Below are positions 8,721 through 58,544 of a stretch of 64,000 nt of DNA, in pieces; position 1 is the stretch's first letter; each line of letters opens with the position of its first letter. The notes under the pieces are model-generated. The model was given only the letters and a program-made list of their open reading frames with translations. It had not been told where the DNA came from and did no database searches. Made by a program: the position numbers and the translations under genes. This stretch comes from Acorus gramineus (lineage: Eukaryota > Streptophyta > Magnoliopsida > Acorales > Acoraceae), in NCBI GenBank assembly GCA_030737835.1, contig CM060847.1, forward strand, positions 21,664,433-21,728,432. Direction: 5' to 3'.

Positions 8721-9692
8721 ACATTTATTTGTGTTGGACAAAAAAAAAAAAAAGAATGGGGAGCAATTTGTGAAGATGATTTGGTGTTTTGGGGGTTGGA
8801 ATTGAATAGGCCAGGCCACTGTCAAGGTGTGTGAAACCAAATAAGCTGGCATGTATAATGTTTATTTTGATTTTCAAACATAGAACATTCGGATTGTTGT
8901 ATCTGAAACACAAATAATACAGAATTTGAAAAAATAATGTTTTCTGTTTCTCTGTTTTTGGTATTAGGATCTTTTGATACTTTACATGTGCAGGCACAGA
9001 TTATATTGAGTTGAGTGGATGTTACACTTCATACCATAATGGTGTCCAGTTGAATTACACTTCATTAGTCTAGAACCATGTACATTTAACATGTGAATAA
9101 AACTAGTGTAAATATTTATATTAATGTTAATCAATATTGAAAAAATTAATAAGAGTGATGCACTCATTCTGTTTTGCAGTCTCATACACTATGATAATAT
9201 AATATATAATGTGTTATCATTATGTATCACTGTATGAGATTCTATAATAAAGTATGCATAAAAAATTTTGTTATTTTTTTAACGGGACAAAAAATACTTT
9301 AATGTAACTTAATATATAATTTATTTCGTATAACTGCATATATTTCAATAAAAGTACATGATTTTTTTTTAAAACAAGACGGTATGGACTCCTATTAGAG
9401 TTGTACAGTAGACCAGACATGGTCACGGATAAGAAACTGCATGTGAAATGCATTGAAAGTAAGGACTACAATTGTCCAGATTCAAAATTGATCTGAATGA
9501 CGGCCCATGTTTGACCACGTCATTGGTCCAGCCCATTCTCAAACTTTGACACGTCACTTCTTTTACGATTTCAACCCTCCAGAAGCCAATTATCTGCAGT
9601 CACATATGATGGCATTCCATGTAATAAATCACAAATCCATTTCCCTTTTCCACAGGTATCTGCGGGTTCATCTTTATTCAATGTGTTGTATT
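8721..9692. other. 3' flank of copy A and promoter remnant of copy B
   Basis: 8721-8960 is 3' UTR and flank alike in copies 0, A and B. About 9175-9270 holds a short palindromic AT-rich MITE-like piece around CACTATGATAATATAATATA. From about 9460 the sequence matches the promoter of copy A (GTCCAGATTCAAAATTGA, CACGTCATTGGTCCAGCCCA, ATAAATCACAAATCC). The TATA box and leader are missing, so no working promoter is visible. Confidence 0.6.
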
Positions 9693-28290: not shown

Positions 28291-28722
28291 CCCTTGGTTG
28301 CCGTGGTTAATTTTTAAATTAACATTTAAATTTATTTCTTTACAAATTGATCATATATTTGTTTCATTAATTTTTTTAAAAAAATTCTTTATTTCAAAAA
28401 CATGCATCCGACATGAAAGTTAGTTTTGTTCTCTTTATGTTTCATCACTTTAGTATTAGTTTTAAAACAAACTTATACATTTCTTTATTCTGATTTCCCT
28501 TCATATTTAATTAATATATATTTATTTTGTTTCTATTTTATAGGATATTTTTTTGTTAAAATGAATCCCAAGATTTAAAGAATTTATGTTGTTTACTTAT
28601 GCTTTTAAAACAAAAAAAATTGATATCATATTATCTTTTTTTTTTTTTTTTTGAACTATTGGGTTATAAAAAGGGATTGCATGCTCAGTTCTTTAATTTG
28701 GAACTGTAAAAAAAAAAAAAAG

Positions 28723-29030
28723 GAAAATGATACGTCCAGCCCCCATTGCAGCCTCAATTGCAATTTACACCGTATTTCTTTTTTTTTAATTTATACACTT
28801 TCCCTTTGGAGTGTATACTGTTATTTGAAATGAAGTATATATTGAAATACAATAGCATAATTTTTTCACTTTTAAAAAATAAAAATAAAAATTTTGTCCA
28901 TACACAGTGATAGAACCCCATGTACTATGATAGCGTATTATATGCTATACTAGTGAGTGTATCAACACTCCAAAAAAATTAGTGTAACATAGCAACATTT
29001 TTCATACCATAATGGTGTCCAGGTATATAA
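28723..29030. mobile_element. MITE-like element with Mutator-like end motif
   Basis: Starts GGAAAATGATACGTCCAGCC followed by CATTGCAGCC. This closely resembles the left end of the large Mutator-like element (GGAAAATGATATACTCAGCC at 29958). The interior has TACTATGATAGCGTATTATATGC. Related starts occur at about 46265, 50645 and 51041. Confidence 0.45.
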
Positions 29031-29940: not shown

Positions 29941-30111
29941 AACGGTATCCTTTTTTTAATGGAAAATGATATACTCAGCCCCGAATGCAGCCCGGCTCAC
30001 AGTCTCCACCTCAGCAATCTGACGTGGCAGGATCTGACGTGGCTTTTCTCTGCTTTCTTTATTTTCGGGGGGATAAATTTTGAATTTCAAAACTCTCTGA
30101 CACATCAATTA

Positions 30112-30112
30112 A

Positions 30113-30190
<78 letters not shown>
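30112..30190. repeat. (AT)n microsatellite, about 79 bp
   Basis: Uninterrupted TA/AT dinucleotides followed by CT and CA runs to about 30228, near the left end of the Mutator-like element. Confidence 0.95.
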
Positions 30191-30193
<3 letters not shown>

Positions 30194-30229
30194 CCTCTCT
30201 CTCTCTCACTCACTCACACACACACACGA

Positions 30230-31577
30230 ACTCACCAAATCACACTTCTTTCCTCTCTCCTATTTCTTCTTCTTCTCCGAATGGATATGTTTCTTCTTGT
30301 TCTCTCTTCATTTCGCTTCATTGTATGTATGTTGTTCTTTTCTTTATATATGTTGGTCTTTTTTTATTTTTTTGTATTACATGCAGTGTTTTTTGATATT
30401 CCGAGAAAACATCAGCTCTCAATTTATGATGCATATTTGTGTTAAGTGTGGTAAGTAGTTGTGGTGTTATGAAATTTTTTTTTCCTATTGGATGCAACAT
30501 ATGCAGCATGTATATATGTTCTTGTAAGAAGAACGTTTTCCCCTATTTGATGCGTTGTTTTATGGTTTCCTTTAAGATTTTTTTGGGATACAAACTATAT
30601 ATACAAATTTTTCCTTTTCTATTTGATTGTAGTATATTTTAGAGTTTCTTTTGTTTTTAGAGTTTGTCTTACGTTTTTTTTTATTCTTTTTAACATCCAA
30701 TTGATACACTATTTGAAAATATATTAGTTATATAGACTATTTGAAATTATGTTAGTAATAGCATAGTGTATACATTTCTATGATTGCATATACTTTATTC
30801 ATTTAGATTCAGTGTATTTATAGAAGAGTACGTTGGTTTAATCTAACATAGCACATGCTGTGCTAATGTAGCGTATACACTGTTATATAAATATAAGTGG
30901 TTAATATTATTTTAATATTATTTTGGATTCTCTAAAAAGCTGTGAGATTTGATTTGATGGCTAATAAATGGAGTGCACCGGGTGGGCTTCCACGTGTACG
31001 GCGCGACTCGTCAACCGATGGGATAATAAATGCCGACGTCATATCAACATTCCGTGGTAGTGAAGTATATGCGAGGCTATCGCAGTACATACTTCATTGG
31101 TTTTCAAAAATATTATTTTATATAAAAATTCGGATTTTGAAAAATTAAGAGTAATCATTGCCTTTGATTTGAAAACTGAGACTTGAAAAGGCGTCACTTT
31201 GGTAACACTTGTACACCCACTAAGTTTGGAAATTACTCTATTGTCCTTCCTAACATAGTATATGCAATGTTAAGGTAGTATGTGCTAAGGGCAATTTTGT
31301 CATTTGAATTTTTATTACGTATAAAACGCTATTCTTAGCGCATACTGCTTCTTACCTCGCTCGATTGCTCTTCTTAATCGTCTCTTTCTCTTAAATCCTT
31401 TGAATTTACACTGCGACTTTCAATTCCACATCACCCACAAAAAATCACTCTAATGGCTGGAAAGGAGAAGATGACAATGGAGGGGGAGATAAGGACATGT
31501 TGCTAATGTCGTATACTATGTTTTTTAATATGGTTTTGGTTTTTTCCTGAAAATATGTTGCTTATTTTGTTTGACAG
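30230..31577 (+). other. left non-coding part of the Mutator-like element, possible leader of the ULP1-like gene
   Basis: Mostly AT-rich and non-coding. Pairs of the 20-bp repeat occur near 30847-30886 and 31250-31290. A short GC-richer block at 30957-31075 (GGTGGGCTTCCACGTGTACGG) is not recognised. A plausible first exon begins at an ATG at 31453 (MAGKEKMTMEGE). An intron acceptor at 31575-31577 precedes the recognisable coding exon. Confidence 0.4.
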
Positions 31578-32300
31578 TGCAAACTAAAATGGGTTAAAGC
31601 TTCAGGCAAGCCCATCCAGTCGCGTTGTACCACCTCTCGTCTGATTGATCTCATGCGAGACATGGGACTACAGAATTCTCCATTCCATCTAGAATCCATC
31701 CGAGCCACCCCGTTCGGACATTTCATTCATATCCCTGCCGTTGTGCAGGAGAACTGTCTCCTTGAGACAATTCTAAGTTTCTATGACTCGAATCACGATG
31801 TTTTCGTGGTTAGAGGAAAGGAACTTCGCTTTTTACCGGAGCATGTTTCCGCAATCCCCGGCTTGTCTAGCCGAGAGGCGCCAAAGAGCACCAGTAAAAA
31901 GTCCCCCAGCTCTCCCTTTTATAGGGAGTATTTCACTTTTCATGGTCAAAAGTACCTTGTCCGACCATTGATTGAGAAACACATGCGGGAGCTTATCCGC
32001 AACACAGACGAGAAGTCCGTGAGGGACTTCACGAAACTATTTATTCTCCATATTTTCTCTAGTATCCTGTTCATCAGGGCGAACTATTCATGTCCACTAG
32101 AGTACGCCGACATCGTTAATGATCTTGATCACCTCGGCGACTATGCGTGGGCCAAAACAGTCCATGCGGATGTGGTTTCTGCTATCATGAAATGCGCGAA
32201 GGTGGTCCAGCGCCCTGAAGGTTGGAATGGGAAGGGCTATTTCTGTGCATGTGCCGTAGTCCTCAACGTAAGTGTATTTATTTTAAGTTTTTGGTGTGTG

Positions 32301-32400
32301 CATAGCGTATACAATTATAATATAGCGTATACTAATCTAACATAGTATATACTATTCTAACATAGCATATACTATTCTAACATAGCGTGTACTGTTCTAA
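32301..32400 (+). repeat. 20-bp phased array 1 (intron of ULP1-like gene)
   Basis: Five units with the consensus CATAGCGTATACTRTTCTAA, each exactly 20 bp from the next, fill the small intron 32268-32409. Confidence 0.85.
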
Positions 32401-33120
32401 CATTTTTAGGCCTGGTTCTATGAGCATGTGCGCATCGCTCAACCTCAGCTGGGGTGGCCCAAGATCCACCGGTGGGCTACGAAGGGGTTTGCCAGGACCC
32501 ATATGTACTCCGCACTCATTAACAGTCTACGGGACTCAGACATTTTGGAAAAAATGGTGTTCGAAGCCAATGAGCTCTCATATCTCGAGGATGAAGCTAT
32601 CTCGACTGCCACTAGGGGAGGACTACAATCCCTGCCCCAACCCCCGCCTCAACCACCGGCAACAGATGAGATGGAGGCGTTGAGAAGAAAGTTGGAGGAG
32701 CTCACTGCCACCATCAACTTATTGATGGCCGAACGACGTGCAAGCTCTCCGTAGAAAAACCAAGAACAACAGCTTGTGCCCCTCAAAAAGAACCATCCTC
32801 AGGCCAAGCAGCCGTGACGTTCCCCAAAGAAGGGTCACAAAAGGAAGGAGCCAGAGCACAATATTGAGGTAGCCGATAAGCAAAAAAAAAGAAACCAACA
32901 CAAAAGGTACGTGTTACCAATTAGATCAGAAAATGTAGTATAAACTTATTTAACGACTGTTGTATTTTTAACTGAAATGTAATTTACTTATTACAGCCAG
33001 AACAGAATACCGATGAATATTTCATGCAGAACATGTGAGGGGATGTGCAAGTAGATCATCCCTCGAATTCTGTTTCCGGTAGGACGACCTCAATCGGAGC
33101 TTCAATATCTGTGACGTCTC

Positions 33121-33413
33121 CAACAGCAGCACCAACAACAATACCAATAGCACCAGCATCAGCAGCAGCAACAACAATAGCAGCACCAGCAAGAGTAGAA
33201 GCAGAAGCACCAGCCCCAACAACAACAACAGTAACACTAGCAACAACACCAGCAGCAGTAGAAGCACCAGAAGCAGCAACAGAAGCACCAGCACTAGCAA
33301 CAACAAGAGTAGTAGAAGCACCAGAAACAGCATCAACAGCAGCAGCACCAGCAACAACAACAGAAGTAGAAGCACCATCACCAACAGAAGCAGAAGTAGC
33401 AGCAACAAAAGCA
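33121..33413 (+). repeat. imperfect AGC/AAC/ACC trinucleotide repeat
   Basis: Triplet repeat that reads as Ala/Thr/Pro-rich in one frame and as poly-Leu on the opposite strand. It lies in the expected linker between the two domains of the ULP1-like gene. A length-variable low-complexity linker is the simplest reading. Confidence 0.8.
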
Positions 33414-33429
33414 GGTTATACATTTATAG

Positions 33430-33540
33430 ATAGCGTTCTAACAAAGCGTATACTGTTCTTGCATAGCGTATACAGTACTAACATAGCATATAATGTTCTA
33501 ACTTAGCGTATACTATTCTAATATAGTGTATGTCTCATTA
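33430..33540 (+). repeat. 20-bp phased array 2
   Basis: Five units such as CATAGCGTATACAGTACTAA and CTTAGCGTATACTATTCTAA at exact 20-bp spacing, following a possible donor (GCAGGTTATA) at the end of the trinucleotide repeat. Confidence 0.85.
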
Positions 33541-34736
33541 TATAAGTATATGCTTCATATAAATTAAATATTGGACAGCCCGTCTGATATTAGAGCCGAG
33601 CGAGAAAACGATCCCCAAAAAAACAAGAACTGGGAGGGGCAATACAATCAACGGGGAGACCGCAAAGTCTGTAAAGGGGGTCATTGTACAAGGATGAAGG
33701 ACTAGATGTCACGCCCCAGGGCGGCCAACCCCGGGACGCGGCAAGTGTATATATAATATCAGAATCTACACAGGAGGTCAATAATATATCATACACAGAC
33801 AACTAGAATGACACACATGCAACAAAAGGGGCTGACATGATATATACACCAAATGCGGAAGCAAAAGACTGAATCTGTGAATAAACATTCTACAGACTCG
33901 ATACTCAATCATCTGTCCTGTGAGAGCCAATATACACAAATACAACTGAACATATACAAACACGTGCCAAGCACGGAAATCAAATACATACAGTCAAGAA
34001 GGGATGCTGATAACCTCTGGCACTCGCGGAACGTGGCGCTGCTCCGCTACTGAAGGAATCCCTCGGAAAGCTCCAACTGCTGCTCCGGCTCTAGCTCAGG
34101 CTCAGTGACCACTGGGGAAAAACATATGCGAGGGGTGAGCCACACGCTCAGTGAACAGCACAACCCATGCATCACAGACAATATTTACCACAATTCCATT
34201 ATTTATCCAGCCTCTAAGACATAACAACATGATCCAGTGATTCGTACTTCGCCGAACCACCACACCCTCACCCTCACCCATCAATGGGTGACATAGGCTA
34301 TTGGGACTGATAATCATCCATTCACAAATCCAGTAGGTCGCTCATCGCCAACCCACTACACCCTCACCCTCACCCTACCACGGGTGACATAGGATTTTGG
34401 GACTGACTAGGCTGTTGGTCACCCTTGGTCCACCGATAGTCTCTCCTCCACTCCGTAGGCCGCCTGGTCTACTCCCACATTCAGCACAGTCCGAAACCAA
34501 ATCAGGAGGTGCCTACTGATGGGAGCCCTCTGTCAGGAAAGCCTGTCTAATGCTGGGGTAGTCTCTACCGGATCCAACGAAGGGGACAGAACAGCCTATC
34601 CATACGCATATGATCCACTCGGATCCGCAAACAACACATCTCTACAACTCTAATGTCATGAACTCTTCAGAGTTCCTCCAGGGCGCATAACCCAGATGCG
34701 GGGAAATAAGTACAATAAAAGCAAAGTTGTAATATC

Positions 34737-35047
34737 ATTGGGGGAAAGAACTCGGGAGGGCGGCATGAGTTCCCGATATAGGATACCCCGACAACCAAAC
34801 AAGGAACACGGAGTACCCTAACCCGGGTCTCACCGCTGTCCTCGCAAGGCCCCTCCCCTATAATATTCACTAACATGCTAATAATCATACTAATCATACA
34901 ACATTACTTATAATATTATTGGGACTAGAAACCTTGGGAGGGCAGCCTGAGGTCCCGATACAGGACATCCCGACAACCAAACAAGGAACACGGAGTACCC
35001 TAACACGGGTCTCAATGTTGACCTCGCAAGGCTCCTCCCTATAATAT
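34737..35047. repeat. direct duplication inside the solo LTR
   Basis: Two copies of about 130 bp (34737-34870 and 34917-35047) share CCCGATA.AGGA..CCCGACAA and CAAACAAGGAACACGGAGTA. A second short duplication surrounds CACCCTCACCCTCACCC (34260 and 34360). Confidence 0.85.
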
Positions 35048-36534
35048 TATCTAAGGCATGCGATTTAACATACACTAGCATTTAATTTAATAAATAAACT
35101 AGTAGGACGCATGCATAGGCCGAGGTTTCCTAGCATGAAACAGGAGGCATGGTGCATGGCTCTTACACCTATCCTATGGGTGCAAGTCCCTAACATAAAA
35201 GCCTAGGGTAGCATGCATTCTACATTTTACATCATGCTCACATGCAATACATATTATTACAGGTTAATATAATCCACGGTGCCCCAGGAGAGGTCGGTAT
35301 ACGCCCAAGTGCGTATAACACCTCTCTACTGGGTTGGATTGTCCCACTCATCGCGCGACCGTCCGTCTAGATCTGCAAGACAGACATTCAATATGGTGAG
35401 TTAAAATCCATAAATACCACAAAATACACAAGAACATACATAAACCCACAACTAAACTCCCAACACCCCCGGCAACCACCCACACGGCCGGCAACCCCCC
35501 CCCCCCCGCACGGCCGCCCGACCGCCCGGGTGCACCGCCGCGCCTCAGCCCACGCACCCCGCACGCCTCGCGCCGGCCCGCGAGCACCCCGCGCGCCCCC
35601 GCCGCGCCTCGCGCGCACCACCGCCGCCTCACCGCGCCCCGCGCGCACCACCACGGCCTCGCCGCGCCCTCCGCGCGCACCCTGCACTCGGCCACCACCT
35701 CGTGCACGCACCACCCCTGCTCGCACGCCTAGCACCCGCGTGACCAGCTCCTCGCGCACCAGCCCGCCCAGCACGACCAGCACCTCGCGCACCAGCCCAC
35801 CCAGCACCAGCCGCCCAGCACGACCAGCACCTCGCGCACCAGCCCGCCCAGCACCAGCCGCCCAGCACGACCAGCACCTCGCGCACCAGCTCGCCCAGCA
35901 CCAGCCGCCCAGCACGACCAGCACGCGCCCCGCAAGCCCGCGCGCACGCCCACGCGCACGCACGCGCGCACGCCCGCGCGCGCCCAGCCCGCTGCGCTGC
36001 TGTGCTGCTGCCGGTGCTGCCTGCTGCCCGAGACAGAACCCCCTGCTGCCCGAGACCATCCCCCACCATTCCCGAGCACCCAAACCACCACCCACCGACC
36101 TCCGACCACCTCCACCGCCCTCCGACGGCCACCCACAGCCGCCGACCTCCACCCAACCCCAAAATCCACCTCCTAACATCCATCTAGACAAGAAAAGAGG
36201 GGAAATAGGGCTTACCAAGGGGAGGAAGGGAAGTCCGGACGCTCTCCGCGCGCCGAAACCTTTCCCCAAGGGCTTCCACCGCCCGGATCTCACTTGGCCT
36301 CCGAAATGGCTCCGATCAGAGGCGAAAAGAGGGTGGATGGGGAGGCTAGGATCGCCGGAATCGGGATTTGAAAGCACCGGGGTGTAGATCGGGACCCGAT
36401 CTACACTTCTTGTGCTTTAGGTTTTTAGGTTTGAGGGGTCTAAGGGCCTCTAATGGAAGAAAAAGAGAGAGGGAGGAGAGAGAGGGATTTGGTAGGGATG
36501 ATGAACAGTAACTCGGAAAAATTAGATCCCACTC

Positions 36535-36541
36535 TTATATA
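36535..36541 (-). promoter_or_regulatory. TATA box of the solo LTR
   Basis: TATATAA on the - strand in the context CACTATATAAGAGTGGG. A CT-rich stretch follows about 50 bp downstream on that strand. It fixes the sense direction of the LTR. Confidence 0.6.
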
Positions 36542-37230
36542 GTGTGCGACTTAAAAACCCGGATACGCCCCGGAACTGCGAAATTTCAGAAACGTTACCG
36601 GAATGCGATGAAATTTTCGTGAGAGGCTTAAAATGGTACCAGGACACCAAATATGCAGTTAGATTTTCAATCGGAGTCCTCTAGCTCAGGACGATAGCTA
36701 ACAGTCCAAAAATTTGCGGTTCCGATCGAAAACCGATAAAAACTGAAAAACTGCCAGAACGCTCTAACGGTTACCAGCAGGTTAAGAGTGACACAAATAT
36801 AACACTAGAGCTAACCCTTCTGCAATCCCAAAAGTTCAATTGAAAAAACCAAATAAAACAAAGATAGTCTAAGATCCAGATGAAGACGACACAAAACTCC
36901 AGAAGGTCATAGAGTTGTCGAAGAAGGAAGCGGAAGAATAGAAACCCGTGTATAAGGAAGTAACACCGTCACTGATCGATGTACGTAACATATCGATACC
37001 TTCAGTGCTGTGATACCTCTGTTCATTTAACTTAGACTAAACATTTTTCAATTACTTTTGTAGAATTTTTCAGGCAAATCGGCGATTTCAAATGAAGAAC
37101 GACGGATCATTTTGGAATTCTTGTAGCTTGAAATGAACAAGTCAATTTGATATATTCTCCTGTTTAATGCTATTTTTCAATAGTAGTCTTACCATTCTTT
37201 GACATTTTCCTAAAATCGCTTACATAATGG

Positions 37231-37390
37231 TAACATAGAGTATACTAATCTAATATAGCATATACTGTTCTAATATAGCGTATACTGATCTAAGATAGTG
37301 TATACTGTTCTAACATAACGTATACTAATCTATTATAGCGTATACTCTTCTAACATACCGTATACTAATCTAATATAGCATATACTTTCT
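37231..37390 (+). repeat. 20-bp phased array 3
   Basis: Eight consecutive units of exactly 20 bp with the consensus TATACTRWTCTAATATAGCR. Units alternate between AATC and GTTC/CTTC at the variable position, hinting at a 40-bp higher-order unit. Lies in the intron upstream of the protease exons. Confidence 0.93.
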
Positions 37391-37429
37391 TATTTACAAT
37401 TTTTAAACTTCTTACCTTGTAATGTTGTG

Positions 37430-38210
37430 GTTTGGAAATTAGGAGATGTTGACGTGAGAAGGCTGGACCTGATTTCGATGATTGGAAATGATTGGCTCGG
37501 TGAATAGGTCATCGATGGCCTAGGGTTGATGTTCACCCATAGAGAGCGTATGCATGACCTTGTGGACAAGACGAAGTTTGTAAAGTCCACTTTAAACGTG
37601 TGTATATCATTTTTTTTCCTTTCGTGGTTTGTCCTTCTGGTGGTATATACTAGATGATTTTCTAACGTAGATATGTTTGAAACACAGCATATGATTAAAC
37701 TTGGGGCAGACCAGGCCCTAAAATTTCTAGAGGAGCAGTGCTTCAAGCCTGATGAACTTGGAGGGGTGGGGAAGATTGTGTTTCCTCTATGGCACGACTA
37801 TCACTGGTTGCTGCTGGTCCTAGACAGAGTGAAGAACACATACGATGTATTCAACTCCACCCGCAACCCCAGGCACTACACGTACGCCAAACAAGTGGTA
37901 CATGCTGCACTTAACTTTCAAATTCTCCAATATTAATACATAATGTTGCCTGAATTCCATATTCCATGTTATCCGGATGCGCAGGTGGGCTTGCTAAAGA
38001 GTTACCTGAAGGATACATCAGCATTCAAGGTGAACGAGAATCTCTAGTGTCCAACCCAAAAAGGTGGGCAAGATTGTGGCGTCTTCGTGTTACATTGGAT
38101 GGACTATGTGTTCCAGCGATGCGAATTCTATTTTTCGAGTGAGTAAGACATGGACTTCCTGCAAGCTAAAATCACTGCTTCTTTTTTATTTGGCAAACCT
38201 GTTTGATATG
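37430..38210 (+). pseudogene. C-terminal ULP1 (C48 SUMO/NEDD8-type cysteine protease) domain of the MULE cargo gene
   Basis: 37480-37600 encodes the NDWLGE...VIDGLGLMFTHRER segment with an in-frame TAG in the middle. After an intron, 37673-37936 gives IVFPLWHDYHWLLLVLD (catalytic His) and YDVFNSTRNP, where the family usually has Asp-Ser and here Asn-Ser is read. After another intron, 37985-38150 gives LLKSYLKDT, a TAG, then PTQKGGQDCGVFVLHWMDYV (catalytic Gln and Cys) ending near SEYL-type sequence. ULP1 proteases cleave SUMO-like modifiers. The order His, (Asp), Gln, Cys is right, but two stops and the Asp to Asn change indicate a dead copy. It lies convergent to the transposase gene. Confidence 0.75.
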
Positions 38211-38370
38211 GTTATTTTTATTGTATAAAAGTGTGTGCTGGGTTGGTGATGTGTATAAACAATTATGATACAGTTTTGAAGTTTTATAATACGAAGGTGG
38301 TTTTTGAGGTTTTTGTCATTCTTACATTGTGGTGGTAATATATATAGTTATGCTAGATAAGAATACACTA

Positions 38371-38550
38371 TGTTAATCAAGTACACTATGTTAAATGAGT
38401 ATACGCTATGGTAAGATGGTATATGCTTTGTTGTGTTAGTATATGCTACAATTAACTAGTACACACTATGGTAAGATCGTATATGCTTTGTTATCTTAAT
38501 ATATGCTACAATTAATGAGTACACACTATGTTAAATGCGTACACGCTAAC
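38371..38550 (-). repeat. 20-bp phased array 4, opposite orientation
   Basis: About nine units such as GTATACGCTATGGTAAGATG and GTATATGCTACAATTAACTA, nearly all at 20-bp spacing (one at 18). Orientation is the reverse complement of arrays 1-3. Lies between the 3' ends of the two convergent MULE genes. Confidence 0.88.
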
Positions 38551-38699
38551 TTTTTCATATATTTGTGTATTATATGATGATATAGTCTATATCCATGGGA
38601 TAACTCACTTGTTTTGACAAAACCAACAATCATTTTGTATTCTGATGTGACTTGTATATTAATTTAATAAAGTACACATATTTTACATTTTACTACAAT

Positions 38700-41358
38700 G
38701 GTTCACTGAGGAACTTGGGATTCAAACCAACGATCAAACTCGCCATCAACATATGCATCGACGGTGGACCACATTGATGGTGCACATTGATTCATGCTCT
38801 CCTGAGTTGACTATACATTGACCTGCATTGGCGTAGAGCCTTGCGTTGATGGTACACGTTTATCATTCTTCTTTGTTTGCTGCACAACAGTGGGGGGAAT
38901 GATCAACAACGCAATTATGTGCCACCTAAGAAAGTATGTGCTACACAAAGTGTCCGAACAGATAATATACTTACAGTTGTTTTCTTCTTCTTGTTGCATG
39001 CAACTTCAGTCCTGGATTTCAACCTCGTCTTGCGAGGACGACCCTTGGATTGTACAACTTCAGGGGGTTGGATTTTATCAATATTCGTGGGTGTGCTACC
39101 AATTGACGAAGGTTGAAGATACTTTCCAGTCACGTGGGTGGCCATCTTTGCCTTCAGTTCACTAAACAATGATGCAACATACTCCGAATCATCTTTAGAT
39201 GAATTTACCATTTCCACGACCTCTTGCACGGTACGTATCCCCAAATTGTACAGTAAATTGAACAAATCCATTGCTCTATTGGGATGATTGAGTGTGCCAC
39301 AAGCGGATGAAGAATGAATCCGCTTGAAATCCTTCCTCTACTGAGGGAGAATATACCTCTCAGGTATAGTTGTCATGAATTCATTTCGAAGAACGCATAG
39401 ACAATGTCGACAAAGTATCCCTCTAAATTCATATGAACGATAAATGCATTGTATCTCTTCGGTACCTCGGTAGAAAACAACCTCAAACTTCAAATGCCTG
39501 TTCAGCCACTTCACCATCTCAATCATCTCGTATTTGATGATGTTGTCATTCCCTGTTGATACACACTGGGCATTCAATTGGATCAATTGTTTCAGTTCTT
39601 GAAACTTCCAGAATATATTAATTGTGTATATTTTCGCCATCTACTCTTCCATTTCCATTGATGACACAAGTTGAGGGGTACTATGGAAGCACGCAAAGTC
39701 TCTAAGGCCTCCTTTTCATGCTTATTCTTTAAAGCATTTTCATATTGTTGAACAAATTGACTTAAACTTGTTTTTGAAGTGACATAGTCATCAAAGTTGC
39801 ATTCATGCTCTCATTACGTTGGGTGGTGGACATTCCCTCCCAAAAGGTGTCTTTAACATAAACTGGTACCCATCGTTCCCGATCCTCATATAAATAAGAC
39901 AACCATGTATTTTCCTAAAGACCATATGCATCCATCACTTTATCCCATCTCTCTTCGAATTTATTCACGGTGAGACAATCATAAACTACATTCATAAGTT
40001 AATCTTTGAAAGACTTGTAATCATTCACCTAGATTTAAAAATTGAACTTCTTATAGTATATACTATGATAAAACGGTATACACTAATAAAATCAAGTATG
40101 TACTATTTTAAAAGAGCATGTGCTATAATAGAAACGTATGTGCTCCTTCATAAACGTATACACTATATTAAAGCAGTGTACGCGTTATGATGGTTATACT
40201 CAAAGTGAAACATGTGGATGCTGCATGATGAATAATTTATAAAAGTTCTAGAAGTATTATAAGTCGATGAATTGATGATAATAATATATGTACCATGCCC
40301 AATTTTTCAGGAACTTTCTTCAAGATATGCCAGAGACAAAGACGGTGTCTTGCCGAAGGAAACACTTTTTCAACGACTCCCCCGATGGATCTGCATTGGT
40401 CAGTGATTATCGCTTGAGGGGGGCGGTTCCCCATGCACGCCAACCAAGCCTTAAAAAGTCATATGTACGTGTCTATCATCTCATTGGCTAGCAAGCCGCA
40501 ACCTAACAGAATGGAATGTCCATGGTGGTTCATGCCAACAAATGGGGCAAACGGCATTGCATATTTGTTTGTCAAATATGTCGTGTTGAATGAGATCACA
40601 TCACCAAAATACTGATATGCATCCCTACATCGTGCATCTGCCCAAAAAACACACTTCAAACGACCATCGCTATCCAAATCAATCCTATGAAAAAAGTTGG
40701 AATTTATTTCTTGTTGTCTGCTAAAATATTGAAGGAGTGCTTCTGCATTGCCTTCCCCAAGCTTGATACGTTTTACTTTACTAAGGAAATTCCGACAATC
40801 CCTTTCTATGAATGGAAGTTGATAATATCTCGCTCCTTCGATAGCTAAGGCATCAAATGTCTTGCATGGCGGAACCCCAGCAGCATCATTTATTGTCAGT
40901 TGTTTCATGGCATATGCAGTTAATGTCCGATGACATTTGTGAAATTGTGAGAGCTTTGGGTCCACCTCGTGATTATGTTCAAGAACGAGTATGTCCAGCA
41001 CCCACATGCCATCTCCATACGTCTTAATTTGCATTCTCGCCTTGCAGTTTGTCTTACAAACTAGTTTATGACAATGCACATATTTCACAGGGCCGCTCTT
41101 GGTTGCCTTCTTCCTCTACTTACCTTCCTTGGAACATGCAAATATCGCTTTACTTAAATCTCCTTCGACGGTGTATTTCCTTCCCGTTTTAAAGATGCCG
41201 AACCCACAATGGAAAGCATATTTTTTATAGGATTCAAAGGCTTCATTGATTGACTTGAATTCCATTCCAACCTTCAGATCGGTGTCTACATTTCTCTCGT
41301 CTTCCACAATGACATGTGCCTTTGTTGTATGTATTTCGTCGCCCCCGCACAAATCCAT
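38700..41358 (-). pseudogene. MULE transposase with FAR1-type DNA-binding domain, broken
   Basis: Starts at 41358 (MDLCGGDEIH). The FAR1/WRKY-GCM1-type domain follows (GMEFKSINEAFESYKKYAF, later LVLEHNHEVD), then the MULE transposase core (VISFNTTYLTNKYAMPFAPF, IITDQCRSIGG, HRLCLWHILKKVPEKL), an exon with [21 protein letters not shown] (about 39860-39800), and a SWIM-type zinc finger (EFRGILCRHCLCVL, about 39430) with the first C-x-C degraded. The tail has KGRPRKTRLKSRTEV (about 39030). It has in-frame stops at 41116-41118 and 40459-40461 (the latter where Trp is expected), further stops in 39700-40020, and Asn instead of the expected first catalytic Asp in FDTTY. It is a relative of the transposase family from which FHY3/FAR1 factors derive. 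Not functional as written. Confidence 0.85.
40056..40195 (-). repeat. 20-bp phased array 5 (intron of the transposase gene)
   Basis: Seven units at exactly 20 bp: GTATATACTATGATAAAACG, GTATACACTAATAAAATCAA and so on to GTGTACGCGTTATGATGG. They lie in the transposase intron between about 40295 and 40020. Confidence 0.9.
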
Positions 41359-41384
41359 GTACTGAAAAATACACGATCCACTTA

Positions 41385-41512
41385 GTATGTACTTATTTAT
41401 AACAGTATATGCTTTATTAAAAAGGTATATACAACATTAACTTAGTATATGATGTGTTAAAGATGTATACGCTATGTGAAATGTGTACACACTGATATAA
41501 CATAGTATATAC
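41385..41512 (-). repeat. 20-bp phased array 6 (upstream of the transposase start)
   Basis: Six to seven units at exactly 20 bp (GTATATGCTTTATTAAAAAG, GTATATACAACATTAACTTA, GTATACGCTATGTGAAATGT) just above the transposase ATG at 41358. Confidence 0.9.
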
Positions 41513-42140
41513 CTACATATTTTAGTAGATGCTTTCTGAAGATTATTTTGCCACTCTTTCGTCCTATTCAACGTGCGTGTCATTGTACACACTGGATAAA
41601 TCTCATCCACGAAATACCAATTTAAAAACAAAATAATGTTTAAATTTTTTCTACAACGAACCTTGTCGTACAAATATCAAAAGTAAAAAATGTCACACAC
41701 ACATTTCTTCACACAAAAGAAAATGTCAAGATTTGTATATATTAAAAGCTATGCTCACTCGGATCATGTGAAAAATGTTACACAAACAAACAAATACTTA
41801 CTTTCCGTTTTGAACTGAATATATTAATGTCAATGCTTAAAATGTTGAGCAAAAATGTAGCACAAACAAAGAAAACTCACTTTTCAGAAGATGCAACACA
41901 AAAATAGGAGTGATGTCCCACTGAAGCAAAAGCCAAAAGTGAAATAAATGAAAAAATGAAATCTATTTTATTTCTTTTCACCAAAAGTAGTTTAGGAGGG
42001 AAACTAAAATTTTATTTTGAGGGGAAAACAAAAAAAGAATAGCTGATGTGGCTGGCGCTGACGTGGAGGAGAGAGGGCTGCATTTCCTTCAGTCTGACGT
42101 GGAGACTGCGCGATGGGCTGCAAAAGGGACTTCTTGTATC
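41513..42140. other. right terminal region of the Mutator-like element
   Basis: AT-rich, with GAAAATG/ACACAAA repeats at 41700-41890. It ends in a GC-richer 90-bp terminus (CTGACGTGGAG...GATGGGCTGC) that mirrors the left terminus. No gene is seen. Confidence 0.55.
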
Positions 42141-43478
42141 AATTGACTGTACTATTTTTTAAAAAAAAAATTATATATTTTACTAAATCTGCAATAAAAA
42201 GGATTGCGAATAGCAATTCCATTTCATTGCATGTAATATTGAAAACTGTCTCAATTAAAAACTCAATTTTGTCAAATTACTTTTGTTAAAATCATGTCAA
42301 CATAAATACCCTTAAATTGTTTAAGTGAGTGCATGGGTACCCATACAGTAGTAGTTGGGTTATGTATTAGTTGAAGATAGTTATTTTTTTACCATTAGAT
42401 ACTTGTGTAATAGGTGATTTGCCTCTAACAAAATCCTATGTTTCTCCCTTCTCTAACAACCTCTCCACATCCATCTATCCTCCACATTTTCCATTCCTCT
42501 GGTTGAAAAAAAGGTTCGCGAATATTTATGTGATTCAACGGAAGATTGAGGGAAAAGAGAAATTTTAGTCTTTTTGGATTCCAAACTTTGTGTTGTGGGG
42601 TTATAAATTTGACTATCCACTTCAAAACCCAATAATTGCCTTTCAATGGCATGAGAAACTCTAACTCACAAAAAAGTACACACACACACATATATATATA
42701 TACACACACACATTACCACGATGCCCCTATACATAATATATGAATGACAATGCTTTCATGAATATTCATGAATATTTTTTTTTAATATAAACATTTTTTC
42801 AGGATAGTTTTGACACCATTACAACTGTGAGATCTTATGACAATGTTCCCCAATCCCATGCAATCCTCTACTACTCACAAAAGACCACCAGTGGGGGGCC
42901 TTTTGATCGCCAAGGCCATCGGAGTATTTGACACCGCTCAAAGGTAATGATTTAATAATCTCTCTCAATCCTGTTTCTTATTGATAATTGTAATTTTTTA
43001 AAACTCAACCATTCATTGAACCAAAAAATGAATAGTTAAGGGTCACTAGGTCAATTGTTTGGTCAACCGAATTTAAATCGTGGCACCATCATGATAATAA
43101 ATATATTAATTATTATACTAAATAAATGAATTTATATAAATATGAAGTATTTTAGAAAATCTTTACATAATTATCAAGTCTTAATTTTAATACTTTTTGA
43201 GTTTTAATTTAACATCATAACATAATTTATTATATAAAATATAAACTTCTTATTATATTTCATATTTTAATAAGTATTTAATCACAATTTTTATAAATAA
43301 ACAACCGATCGGTTTAATCAACCTACAGACAGTTCTAAAAAATTGTCACAATTTTTTATATCATTGGGTTTCGAGGGTAAATCAAACCGAAATTCAAAAT
43401 GAGTGAAGATTTTTCTTGTTTAATCGGCTAGATTGGGTCGGGTATTAAAGCACTAGATAATTGTCCTTCCTGTAATAA

Positions 43479-46038: not shown

Positions 46039-47685
46039 CAGGGGTGGACCCAAGGGGGGGCGGGCTGGGGCCCGGGCCCCCCCAAGCAACCCATGATATA
46101 TAATATTAGGCTCATCATCTTCTTGTTCTACAAATAAAAAAAATGTAATCTCATGCTTTGTGATCACATGATAACTTTATAAAATTTTGATATGAACATA
46201 ATTTGTAGTTTAAAATGACAACGTTAGGAGGCTTAGACAGGTTCAGACGGGACATATCATGAATGGAAAATGATATATTCAACCCCAATTCCAACCCTAT
46301 TCGCAGTCCATACCGTTTTTCCTTTTTCTTTTTAAATTATATACTCTCTTGTTGAAGTATATGATGTTACAATAAATGAAATATACACTGATATACAATA
46401 TTGTATTTTTTCATTTTTAAAAATAATTGTTTTGTATCATACACTCTCTCATTGAAGCATATGATGTTACATTAAATGAAATATGCACTGATATACAATA
46501 TTGTATTTTTTTCGTTTTAAAAAATAATTTTTTTGTATCATACACTATGATAAAACATCATACATTGTGATAACGCAATATATATTGTGTTATCATAGTA
46601 TGGGGTGTGACATTAGGTTATTCACTCTCGATAATTATATTGGGATAGATAACAATCCATGCTGAATAAGTAACTTTTTGTTTGGTTGTCTTTTTTGTTA
46701 TTCTCATTGGGAAACGTAAAAATGATTTTTTTGTTGTTTGGTTCACCTTGGATAAAGTGATGATAAATGGTTGATAAGTGATGAATAAGAGTTTATGATT
46801 TCTTAAATGACAATTATACCCCCTGAGAATAGTGTGAGAGATATATGATTGATTTGATAGATGTGACAGTTTTTGGAATCTGTGTGAGTCTGTTAGGTGA
46901 GATAAATTTTTTAAAATGACAGAGAAGTGTATTTTTATCCATCAGCATAGATAAGCCTTGATAAGCAATTCCATCATTTCCTTAGAATAGTTATCAGGCT
47001 TTATCCTAGCTTATTCAGACATAACTATCGGGGTTTATTCTATCAAAACAAACAACTTTTTTTAGCTATTCTCATATATTCTTCATTATTCTTGCCTTAT
47101 GTTACTCGCCATACAGGGGGATAGTGTGTGAGACTATAAGTGAACTATAAAATGGAGTTGATTACGTGAGTGAGATTCAGAAAAATAGACATCTTTTTGT
47201 AAATGAGACTTTTAAACAATAGTTAATTAATATAGTCATGTCCCTCAAATATGATCATTCTCGCAAACAAAAAATATATGTCATACGATGGTTAAATTAG
47301 TCAAAAGAAGAATGAATAGATAATAATAAATTAATTTCAAGTATTTTTTCAGTCCCAGAACTTTTGTAGCAATATGAAAATACCTTCTATTAGCAGTTAC
47401 ATTTTTTTAGGTATTTCCATTTCTTTTTAATTATTTAATCCATTTGATTTCCTTTTGTTTATTATTATGCATTATGTATACAGTGTGTTATTAATTCATT
47501 TATCATGTATTGTAGATTGATATGCATTTATGTATCCTATTAAATTTATACATATATAGTTACTTAACCGGCACACATGGGCATTGGACAATTAAATATT
47601 TTTCTCTATACTTTGAAGTCCTTTGTCTTACCGTCTCCCCTCCCCCCCCCCCCCCTCACATGTTTTAATTCCTGGGTCCGCCCTA
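46039..47685. mobile_element. non-autonomous hAT-like element, 1647 bp, in intron 4 of OPR copy C
   Basis: Flanked by perfect 8-bp duplications GGCTCAAG (46031-46038 and 47686-47693). The ends are inverted: CAGGGGTGGACCCAAGG on the left and, reversed, TAGGGCGGACCCAGG on the right. The empty site is seen in copy E (GGGCTATAACCGTATTTG at 57921). No transposase is present. The interior holds at least one younger MITE (about 46262-46620) and a C-run at 47642-47655. Confidence 0.82.
46262..46620. mobile_element. MITE-like element inside the hAT-like element
   Basis: Starts GGAAAATGATATATTCAACC. Contains two tandem versions of the block CATACACTCTC.TTGAAG.ATATGATG and ends in a palindrome around GATAACGCAATATATATTGTG. 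Confidence 0.45.
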
Positions 47686-50639: not shown

Positions 50640-51460
50640 AAAAAAAAATGATAAACTCGTTGCAACCTTAATTGCAATCTACACCGTATTTTCTTTTGTT
50701 TTTAATTTATACACTCTCCCTTTGGAGTTCATTCTGTTATTTGAAATGAAGTATATATTGAGATATAATAGTATAACTTTTTCAATTTTAAAAAATAAAA
50801 TAAAATTTTTGTCTATACACTATGATAAAACCCCATATACTATGATAACGTATTATATGCTATACTAATAAGTGTGCCAGCACTCCAAAATAAAATTGTG
50901 TAACACAACAACATTTTTCATACCAAAATAAATTTTAGAAACACTTGTGATATCTGTTTTAGACTATAAAATGGATCACATGCTCACTTCTTTTATTTGG
51001 AATGGTAAAAAAATATATTGTGTAGCAGAGCTAACATTTTCAAAAAATAATATTTCAAGCCCTTGAGTAGCACTCCATTTGCAGTCCACATTGTTTTTTT
51101 TAAAAAAAAAAAAATCACGCACTCCCTTATTGAAGTACATATTATTATATGAAATGAAGTGTTCAGATACACCAATGTATTTTTTCTCTTGAAAAAATGA
51201 GAAAAACAATTACGTCATACATTATAATAAAACCTCATACACTATGACAGCGTAATATATATGATAGCGCAGTATATATTATACTATCATAGTATATAGG
51301 ATTGCAAAAGGAGACTATCAACGCTGAACACTTTTCATACTGAGTGCTCGACTTGGTCCGCTTTGCAGCCACATATACTATGATAACATAATATATATTA
51401 CACTATTATAATGTGTGGGCTTCTATCATAATGTATGACGCAAAAAAAATTATTATTTTT
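50640..51460. mobile_element. cluster of MITE-like elements with hairpin motifs
   Basis: Two successive starts (AAAATGATAAACTCGTTGC at 50647; AATAATATTTCAAGCCC at 51045) resemble the MITE at 28723. 51205-51450 repeats CACTATGATA..GTAATATATAT and its complement several times, forming short perfect hairpins. Confidence 0.45.
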
Positions 51461-51671
51461 CAATGGGAAACAAATATACTAATGTATTTCGGTATATATT
51501 TCATTTCATATAATTATATGTATTTTAATTAAAAAATATATGATTAAAAAAAAAAAACTTGTGTGGACTGCAATTGGACTGATATGACCTTTCATAGCAT
51601 AATGGTGTCCAGATGAATTAAGGCCCATGTATGGCCCACGTCATTGGTCCAGCCCACCAACCCAAATTCCA

Positions 51672-51786: not shown

Positions 51787-58544
<6,758 letters not shown>

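Follow-up and report, generated by a model that had tools for sequence, protein, structure and literature searches.

The stretch of Acorus gramineus DNA analyzed here (assembly GCA_030737835.1, contig CM060847.1, positions 21,664,433-21,728,432; 64,000 nt, hereafter the window) contains a broken copy of a Mutator-like element (MULE) at about 29961-42137, with GGAAAATGATATAC at its left end and ...GTATCA at its right end. Two convergent genes lie in the element, and its non-coding DNA carries six arrays of short repeats with an exact 20-bp period, which have 37 phased slots in all, 32 of them occupied by scored units. Gene 1 (31575-38150, + strand) has several exons, whose limits were taken from sequence reading alone: a DUF1985 exon (31575-32268; PF09331, E 4.3e-5), an exon with tandem peptide repeats at about 33121-33408, recognized by repeat detection and sequence reading, and an Ulp1/C48 part at about 37658-38140 (PF02902, E 0.0021). 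Gene 2 (38918-41436, - strand), present as several open pieces, encodes a FAR1/MULE transposase with Pfam matches above the curated cut-offs (MULE, 40.5 and 48.7 bits, cut-off 27.6; FAR1, 31.2 bits, cut-off 28.1). The Pfam matches agree with the initial annotation of this DNA, which had described a Mutator-like element with an ULP1-like gene and a transposase gene.

Position, period and strand of the arrays

Three arrays are located in introns of gene 1 and read on the + strand: array 1 at 32301-32400 (five units of 20 bp), array 2 at 33442-33541 (four scored units in five slots, the scored chain being 33442-33521) and array 3 at 37234-37393 (eight units). The remaining three read on the - strand: array 4 in the gap between the convergent genes (38391-38550; seven scored units in eight slots), array 5 in an intron of the transposase gene (40048-40187; five in seven) and array 6 in the leader of that gene (41397-41476; three in four), where + matches were found too. 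Upstream of gene 1, the weight matrix also detected isolated and paired units at 30762-30886 and a near-palindromic pair at 31250-31289. All six arrays lie at least 661 bp inward from the ends of the element.

The matrix was trained solely on the three + arrays and nevertheless recovered all six chains on both strands. Tandem Repeats Finder reported 20-bp arrays at 32301, 33435, 37231 and 38382, and a 60-bp array at 38397. A lag scan of the element, from which the nested insertion and the coding repeat were left out, gave 248 60-bp windows with at least 70% identity at lag 20, against none in the rest of the window and none in 100 shuffles; signals at other even lags are due to a run of (AT)n. 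Phased chains at period 20 numbered 62 in the window plus 23 fetched loci, with none at 17, 18, 19, 21, 22 or 23 and three in the reversed-sequence control; the 62 are not to be counted as independent arrays, since most loci were selected through the motif and near-duplicates are among them. A search of the whole genome for the consensus, allowing two mismatches at most, gave 108 matches, against none for the backward pattern. The six exact 20-bp arrays of the initial annotation are confirmed.

The units are on the + strand over the DUF1985/Ulp1 gene and on the - strand over the gap and the transposase gene, the flip occurring at about 38.35 kb, within the gap. The strand switch had been noticed before and is real, although it had been placed at 38371, and the left and right arrays are indeed opposite in direction. 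That orientation does not extend to every unit: the leader has matches on both strands from 41385 on because its units are near-palindromic, and the pairs at 30847 and 31250, being near-palindromic as well, are ambiguous in strand. The right-hand arrays are more degenerate than the left. As had been remarked, left-side units contain CTAAC or CTAAT, which are confined to the left arrays; CTRAY occurs 17 times in the 18 left slots, and the end of array 1 adjoins a 3' splice site, so that the arrays could be taken for multiplied splice branch points. This explanation is highly improbable, since CTRAY occurs once in the 19 right slots, array 4 lies between genes, and the unit of a second lineage described below contains TTACAG without CTAAC.

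Arrays and ends in other copies of the element

Other copies of the element in the genome, chosen by the motif and including duplicates, had arrays at the same sites and on the expected strand wherever the region could be cut out, and the number of units varied. Array 1 (intron 1) was present in nine of nine other copies, array 2 (intron 2) in ten of ten with two to four units (just two in L023), and array 3 (intron 3) in nine of nine with four to eight. In the gap, six of six copies had three to eight units on the - strand, three of them with one additional + match. Array 5 was found in both copies available for the transposase intron, and array 6 in all three available for the leader, with matches on both strands and out of the 20-bp phase in L023. 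Most other copies that were cut out retain the units at 30762-30886, and every row has the pair at 31250-31289. The check proposed by the initial annotation, that positions and orientation be compared among copies, thus came out in its favor.

A sample independent of the motif was obtained with the transposase exon, which had 40 matches including the window; the flanks of nine were read. At least three phased units were present in the leader in six of nine and in the intron in four of nine. Two loci (L055, L063) had fewer phased leader units and L062 had isolated intron matches only; no units were found in the leader of L057 or in the intron of L046, L048, L056 and L060, where by eye the DNA is inserted or unrelated. 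Two copies, C80 and C61, had an identical pattern and are possibly duplicates. On C1, the copies at 26240000-26259900 and 26299500-26319300, about 45-60 kb apart, have mirrored motif matches; the two look like a large inverted duplication.

The ends of the element are conserved in other genomic copies, as seen by copy comparison, and the flanks of the C9 copy carry a 9-bp target duplication, ATTGTGCAC, read by eye. The window copy had no clear target duplication, and the bases that finish the right end in C2 are missing from it; no long inverted ends were seen by eye, in the absence of a systematic test of the ends. On sequence reading, the window copy is broken by a stop codon within the C48 part of gene 1. 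A 3.1-kb repeat is nested in the element at 33707-36803 and is absent from that place in L009; it is a high-copy repeat that begins with TGTCACGCCCCAGG and has repeated ACTAGA bases on its flanks, and pieces related to it are found within or next to many of the copies that were fetched, an example being the C32 copy (L057), where the repeat is in the leader. On the right, the flank of the element (42138-43200) recurs 12 kb farther along at 54260-55265, with 87-95% identity.

The unit and its counterpart in a second DUF1985 lineage

The unit is best described as a 15-bp motif, TAAYATAGCRTATAC, and a 5-bp spacer that is fixed in length and loose in sequence. Conservation covers positions 18-20 and 1-12 and is much weaker at positions 13-17. 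As the matrix itself helps to pick units, neighbors at +20 and -20 of strong matches were taken regardless of their appearance; in this sample of 443 units, array edges included, the commonest base had a frequency of 0.49-0.62 at positions 13-17 and 0.55-0.83 elsewhere, with positions 1, 6 and 7 low as well. Neighboring units differ at the spacer positions 13-17 in 38-58% of steps and at positions 8 and 10 in 4%. From this uneven conservation we propose a 15-bp site followed by a 5-bp spacer. At the core positions 6-7, CG was present in 125 of 250 units, CA in 59, TG in 28 and TA in 27; TA was not depleted, and a clear signature of CpG decay was not apparent.

A genome-wide search in which the spacer was free to vary from 0 to 25 bases gave 277 matches, and seven with the backward pattern. 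Among the 100 matches listed, the spacer had 5 bases in 59, 25 in eight, 7 in 24 and other lengths in nine. The matches with a 7-base spacer were considered as further MULE arrays and rejected, since in the two loci examined (L044, L045) they are inverted pairs within an AT-rich dispersed repeat some 300 bp long. This repeat is also present in the window at 9169-9348, 28709-28948, 46266-46599, 50670-50863 and 51112-51556, and its copies in L044 and L045 have the inverted motif pair GTATACGCTATG...CATAGTATATAC. Possibly this repeat is a passenger with the same target motif, comparable to AT9TSD1, a repeat that is unrelated to VANDAL and has sites for the VANC6 motif (PMC5735166).

The number of units changes by whole units, and adjacent units have private spacer variants in common, which supports growth of the arrays through local unit duplication. 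In this respect the idea of a small satellite, raised by the initial annotation, finds support. The same two features would be expected of a satellite that spreads in introns by slippage and unequal exchange with no bound protein, yet we regard this as quite improbable: conservation is uneven within the unit, irregular spacings are rare (12 against 860 neighbor mismatches over 159 regular steps, after dropping three near-duplicate loci), and a second lineage has a similar spacing, 21-22 instead of 20 bp, with another word. For comparison, nearby non-coding DNA had 0.047-0.105 gaps per substitution, a ratio that is indicative only because it was measured differently. These arguments are not decisive, since unit-wise duplication alone could hold the length constant.

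The second lineage was found with PF09331 without use of the motif; the search gave 29 places, of which ten had loci, and 3.3 kb was read at each. Four of the ten (L034, L036, L039, L040) have repeats of 21-22 or 42 bp built on another word, TTACAG. The count of this word was above that of all 100 shuffles in L036, L039, L040 and L041 but not in L034 and L035, and the distances between TTACA(G/T/A) words in the eight loci L034-L041 peak at 21 (29), 42 (17) and 63 (10). In one TTACAG locus, read across 8.3 kb, DUF1985 and C48 share a strand and a MULE transposase is encoded on the opposite one; the distances between TTACA words are mostly 21-22, 42-43 and 63-64. Most of these words are antisense to the DUF1985 gene, the gap has a + cluster and the C48 region a further + pair, which makes the rule of direction less clear at this locus. 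L039 exceeds the PF09331 cut-off (36.5 bits) and matches the window in tblastn with E about 1e-17; the PF02902 match of L042 (E 0.0089) is below the cut-off. In a tree of DUF1985, for which 18 loci were offered and 14 gave rows, the GTATAC group (eight rows) and the TTACAG group (five) are split by a branch with support 100/100; L035 was left unlabelled. The transposases of the two lineages differ too.

A VANC-like reading and known systems

In Arabidopsis, VANC proteins bind short motifs that lie as same-orientation tandem repeats in the non-coding DNA of VANDAL elements (Hosaka 2017). YAGTATTAY, the motif bound by VANC21, occurs in VANDAL21 non-coding DNA in one orientation and often in tandem, and methylation is lost through the action of VANC21; VANC6 has this effect through a different motif (PMC5735166). 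VANC and host RNA-directed methylation are in competition over the same non-coding DNA (PMC10398659). Ulp1 is present in the VANC genes of some VANDALs (Kaonashi, KIU), which recognize motifs of their own kind; Kaonashi elements are MULEs without terminal inverted repeats, and MULEs with Ulp1-carrying VANC genes are also described in melon, grapevine and rice (PMC13317346).

The arrays are probably cis-acting target sites for the DUF1985 protein of gene 1, acting as a VANC-like anti-silencing protein. The element matches the VANC scheme in gene content, in the placement of the arrays and in having a lineage-specific motif, and an unrelated motif in a second DUF1985-Ulp1/MULE lineage is what the VANC-target model predicts; we infer binding and the anti-silencing effect from the work on Arabidopsis VANDALs. 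The DUF1985 protein would bind the 15-bp motif, whose repetition at 20 bp may set the bound molecules on one face of the helix, and the density and phase of the arrays would allow the protein to single out DNA of its own family. Located on introns, gap and leader, the protein could then clear the element of host DNA methylation or prevent it, such that the element genes would be expressed. The DUF1985 exons of other copies, which differ by 8-18% from that of the window, have ratios of nonsynonymous to synonymous substitution (dN/dS) of 0.17-0.48 (12 rows), which counts in favor of such a protein; the transposase exon gave 0.30-0.62 (three rows), and stop codons are present in 12 of the 15 rows used. 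The tandem peptide repeat exon of gene 1 (33121-33408) is also found in a sister gene (L064), with different units.

Several results weigh against this reading. Neither the DUF1985 match nor the C48 match of the window reaches its Pfam cut-off (23.9 bits against 35.1, and 18.3 against 20.7), and DUF287 had no match among the nine open pieces scanned. GTATAC arrays were absent from the two stretches that were read at a sister locus with 73% relatedness. Four of the ten loci found with PF09331 (L032, L033, L037, L038) had neither type of array in their 3.3 kb, had at most two TTACAG words and gave no row for the tree. The tree itself has few rows, and L041 was grouped with TTACAG by the number of words, no array being detected in it.

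The initial annotation had listed transposase-binding arrays among its candidates, and the class of idea seems right, with the DUF1985 protein a likelier binder than the transposase. Sites for the transposase of the element or for a host transcription factor, used in regulating the two genes, could also account for a motif that is phased and conserved, has a spacer constant in length and variable in sequence, and adjoins both genes. We consider this unlikely because the arrays are well inside the ends and mostly intronic, and because the other motif in another DUF1985 lineage suggests a partner that varies with lineage, although the transposases of the lineages also vary. Terminal transposase sites in particular fit poorly, with all six arrays hundreds of bases or more inward of the ends.

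The direction of the arrays may itself be functional under the VANC-like reading, given that the motif follows the transcription of both genes and flips in the gap and that the spacer is held at 5 bp, but this extension is doubtful. Were it true, the DUF1985 protein would line up in a row that is in phase with the helix and has a direction, and the polarity of this row with respect to transcription would matter for keeping a gene unsilenced. The abstract of Sasaki 2022 reportedly names three determinants: the sequence of the motif, its density and helical periodicity. In the literature searched we found no description of such arrays outside Arabidopsis, and Sasaki 2022, with eudicots in its title, may well have one. 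With these arrays, a second plant genome is seen to have two or more array codes, each specific to a lineage, beside its DUF1985-Ulp1 genes (a GTATAC core at 20 bp and TTACAG at 21-22 bp), and a testable rule is obtained: a 15-bp site and a 5-bp spacer in two helix turns, oriented according to the gene. Should the link hold, one could test beyond Arabidopsis how an anti-silencing protein is coupled to its DNA target.

The initial annotation knew of no phased intronic arrays in MULEs, but for VANDAL21 the literature already describes tandem motif arrays of one orientation, in introns and elsewhere in the non-coding DNA, and for VANDAL6 it describes tandem arrays built on a different motif (PMC5735166). 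The kind of array is thus already known in MULEs and the present case is well explained by analogy, this motif and this host being the parts that we did not find described. The element would operate like a VANC system; we do not file it as a VANDAL. As with VANDAL21 (Hiun) and VANC21, a MULE is accompanied by a DUF1985 gene and by a short tandem motif in one orientation, which in VANDAL21 occupies introns, intergenic and terminal non-coding DNA; arrays are gained and lost between copies, and a protein region with tandem peptide motifs is variable (PMC5735166). The peptide-repeat exons of gene 1 and its sister gene resemble the variable regions described for VANC proteins. Unlike VANDAL21, the element has another motif and host, two genes found instead of three (VANA, VANB and VANC) and an Ulp1/C48 part; DUF287, a feature of the Arabidopsis VANCs shown in PMC5735166, was not seen in the pieces scanned. 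The exact 20-bp period is a feature of the arrays here, and none is stated for VANDAL21 in the available part of PMC5735166, which likewise gives no spacing for the VANDAL6 motif. The relation of VANDAL6 and VANC6 (AGTTGTCC, AGTTGTAC) to VANDAL21, in which a related protein goes with a different tandem motif (PMC5735166), is the pattern of the GTATAC and TTACAG lineages, though the motif sequence is another. Like Kaonashi, by description rather than by sequence, the element joins a DUF1985-side gene to an Ulp1-like part within a MULE (PMC13317346).

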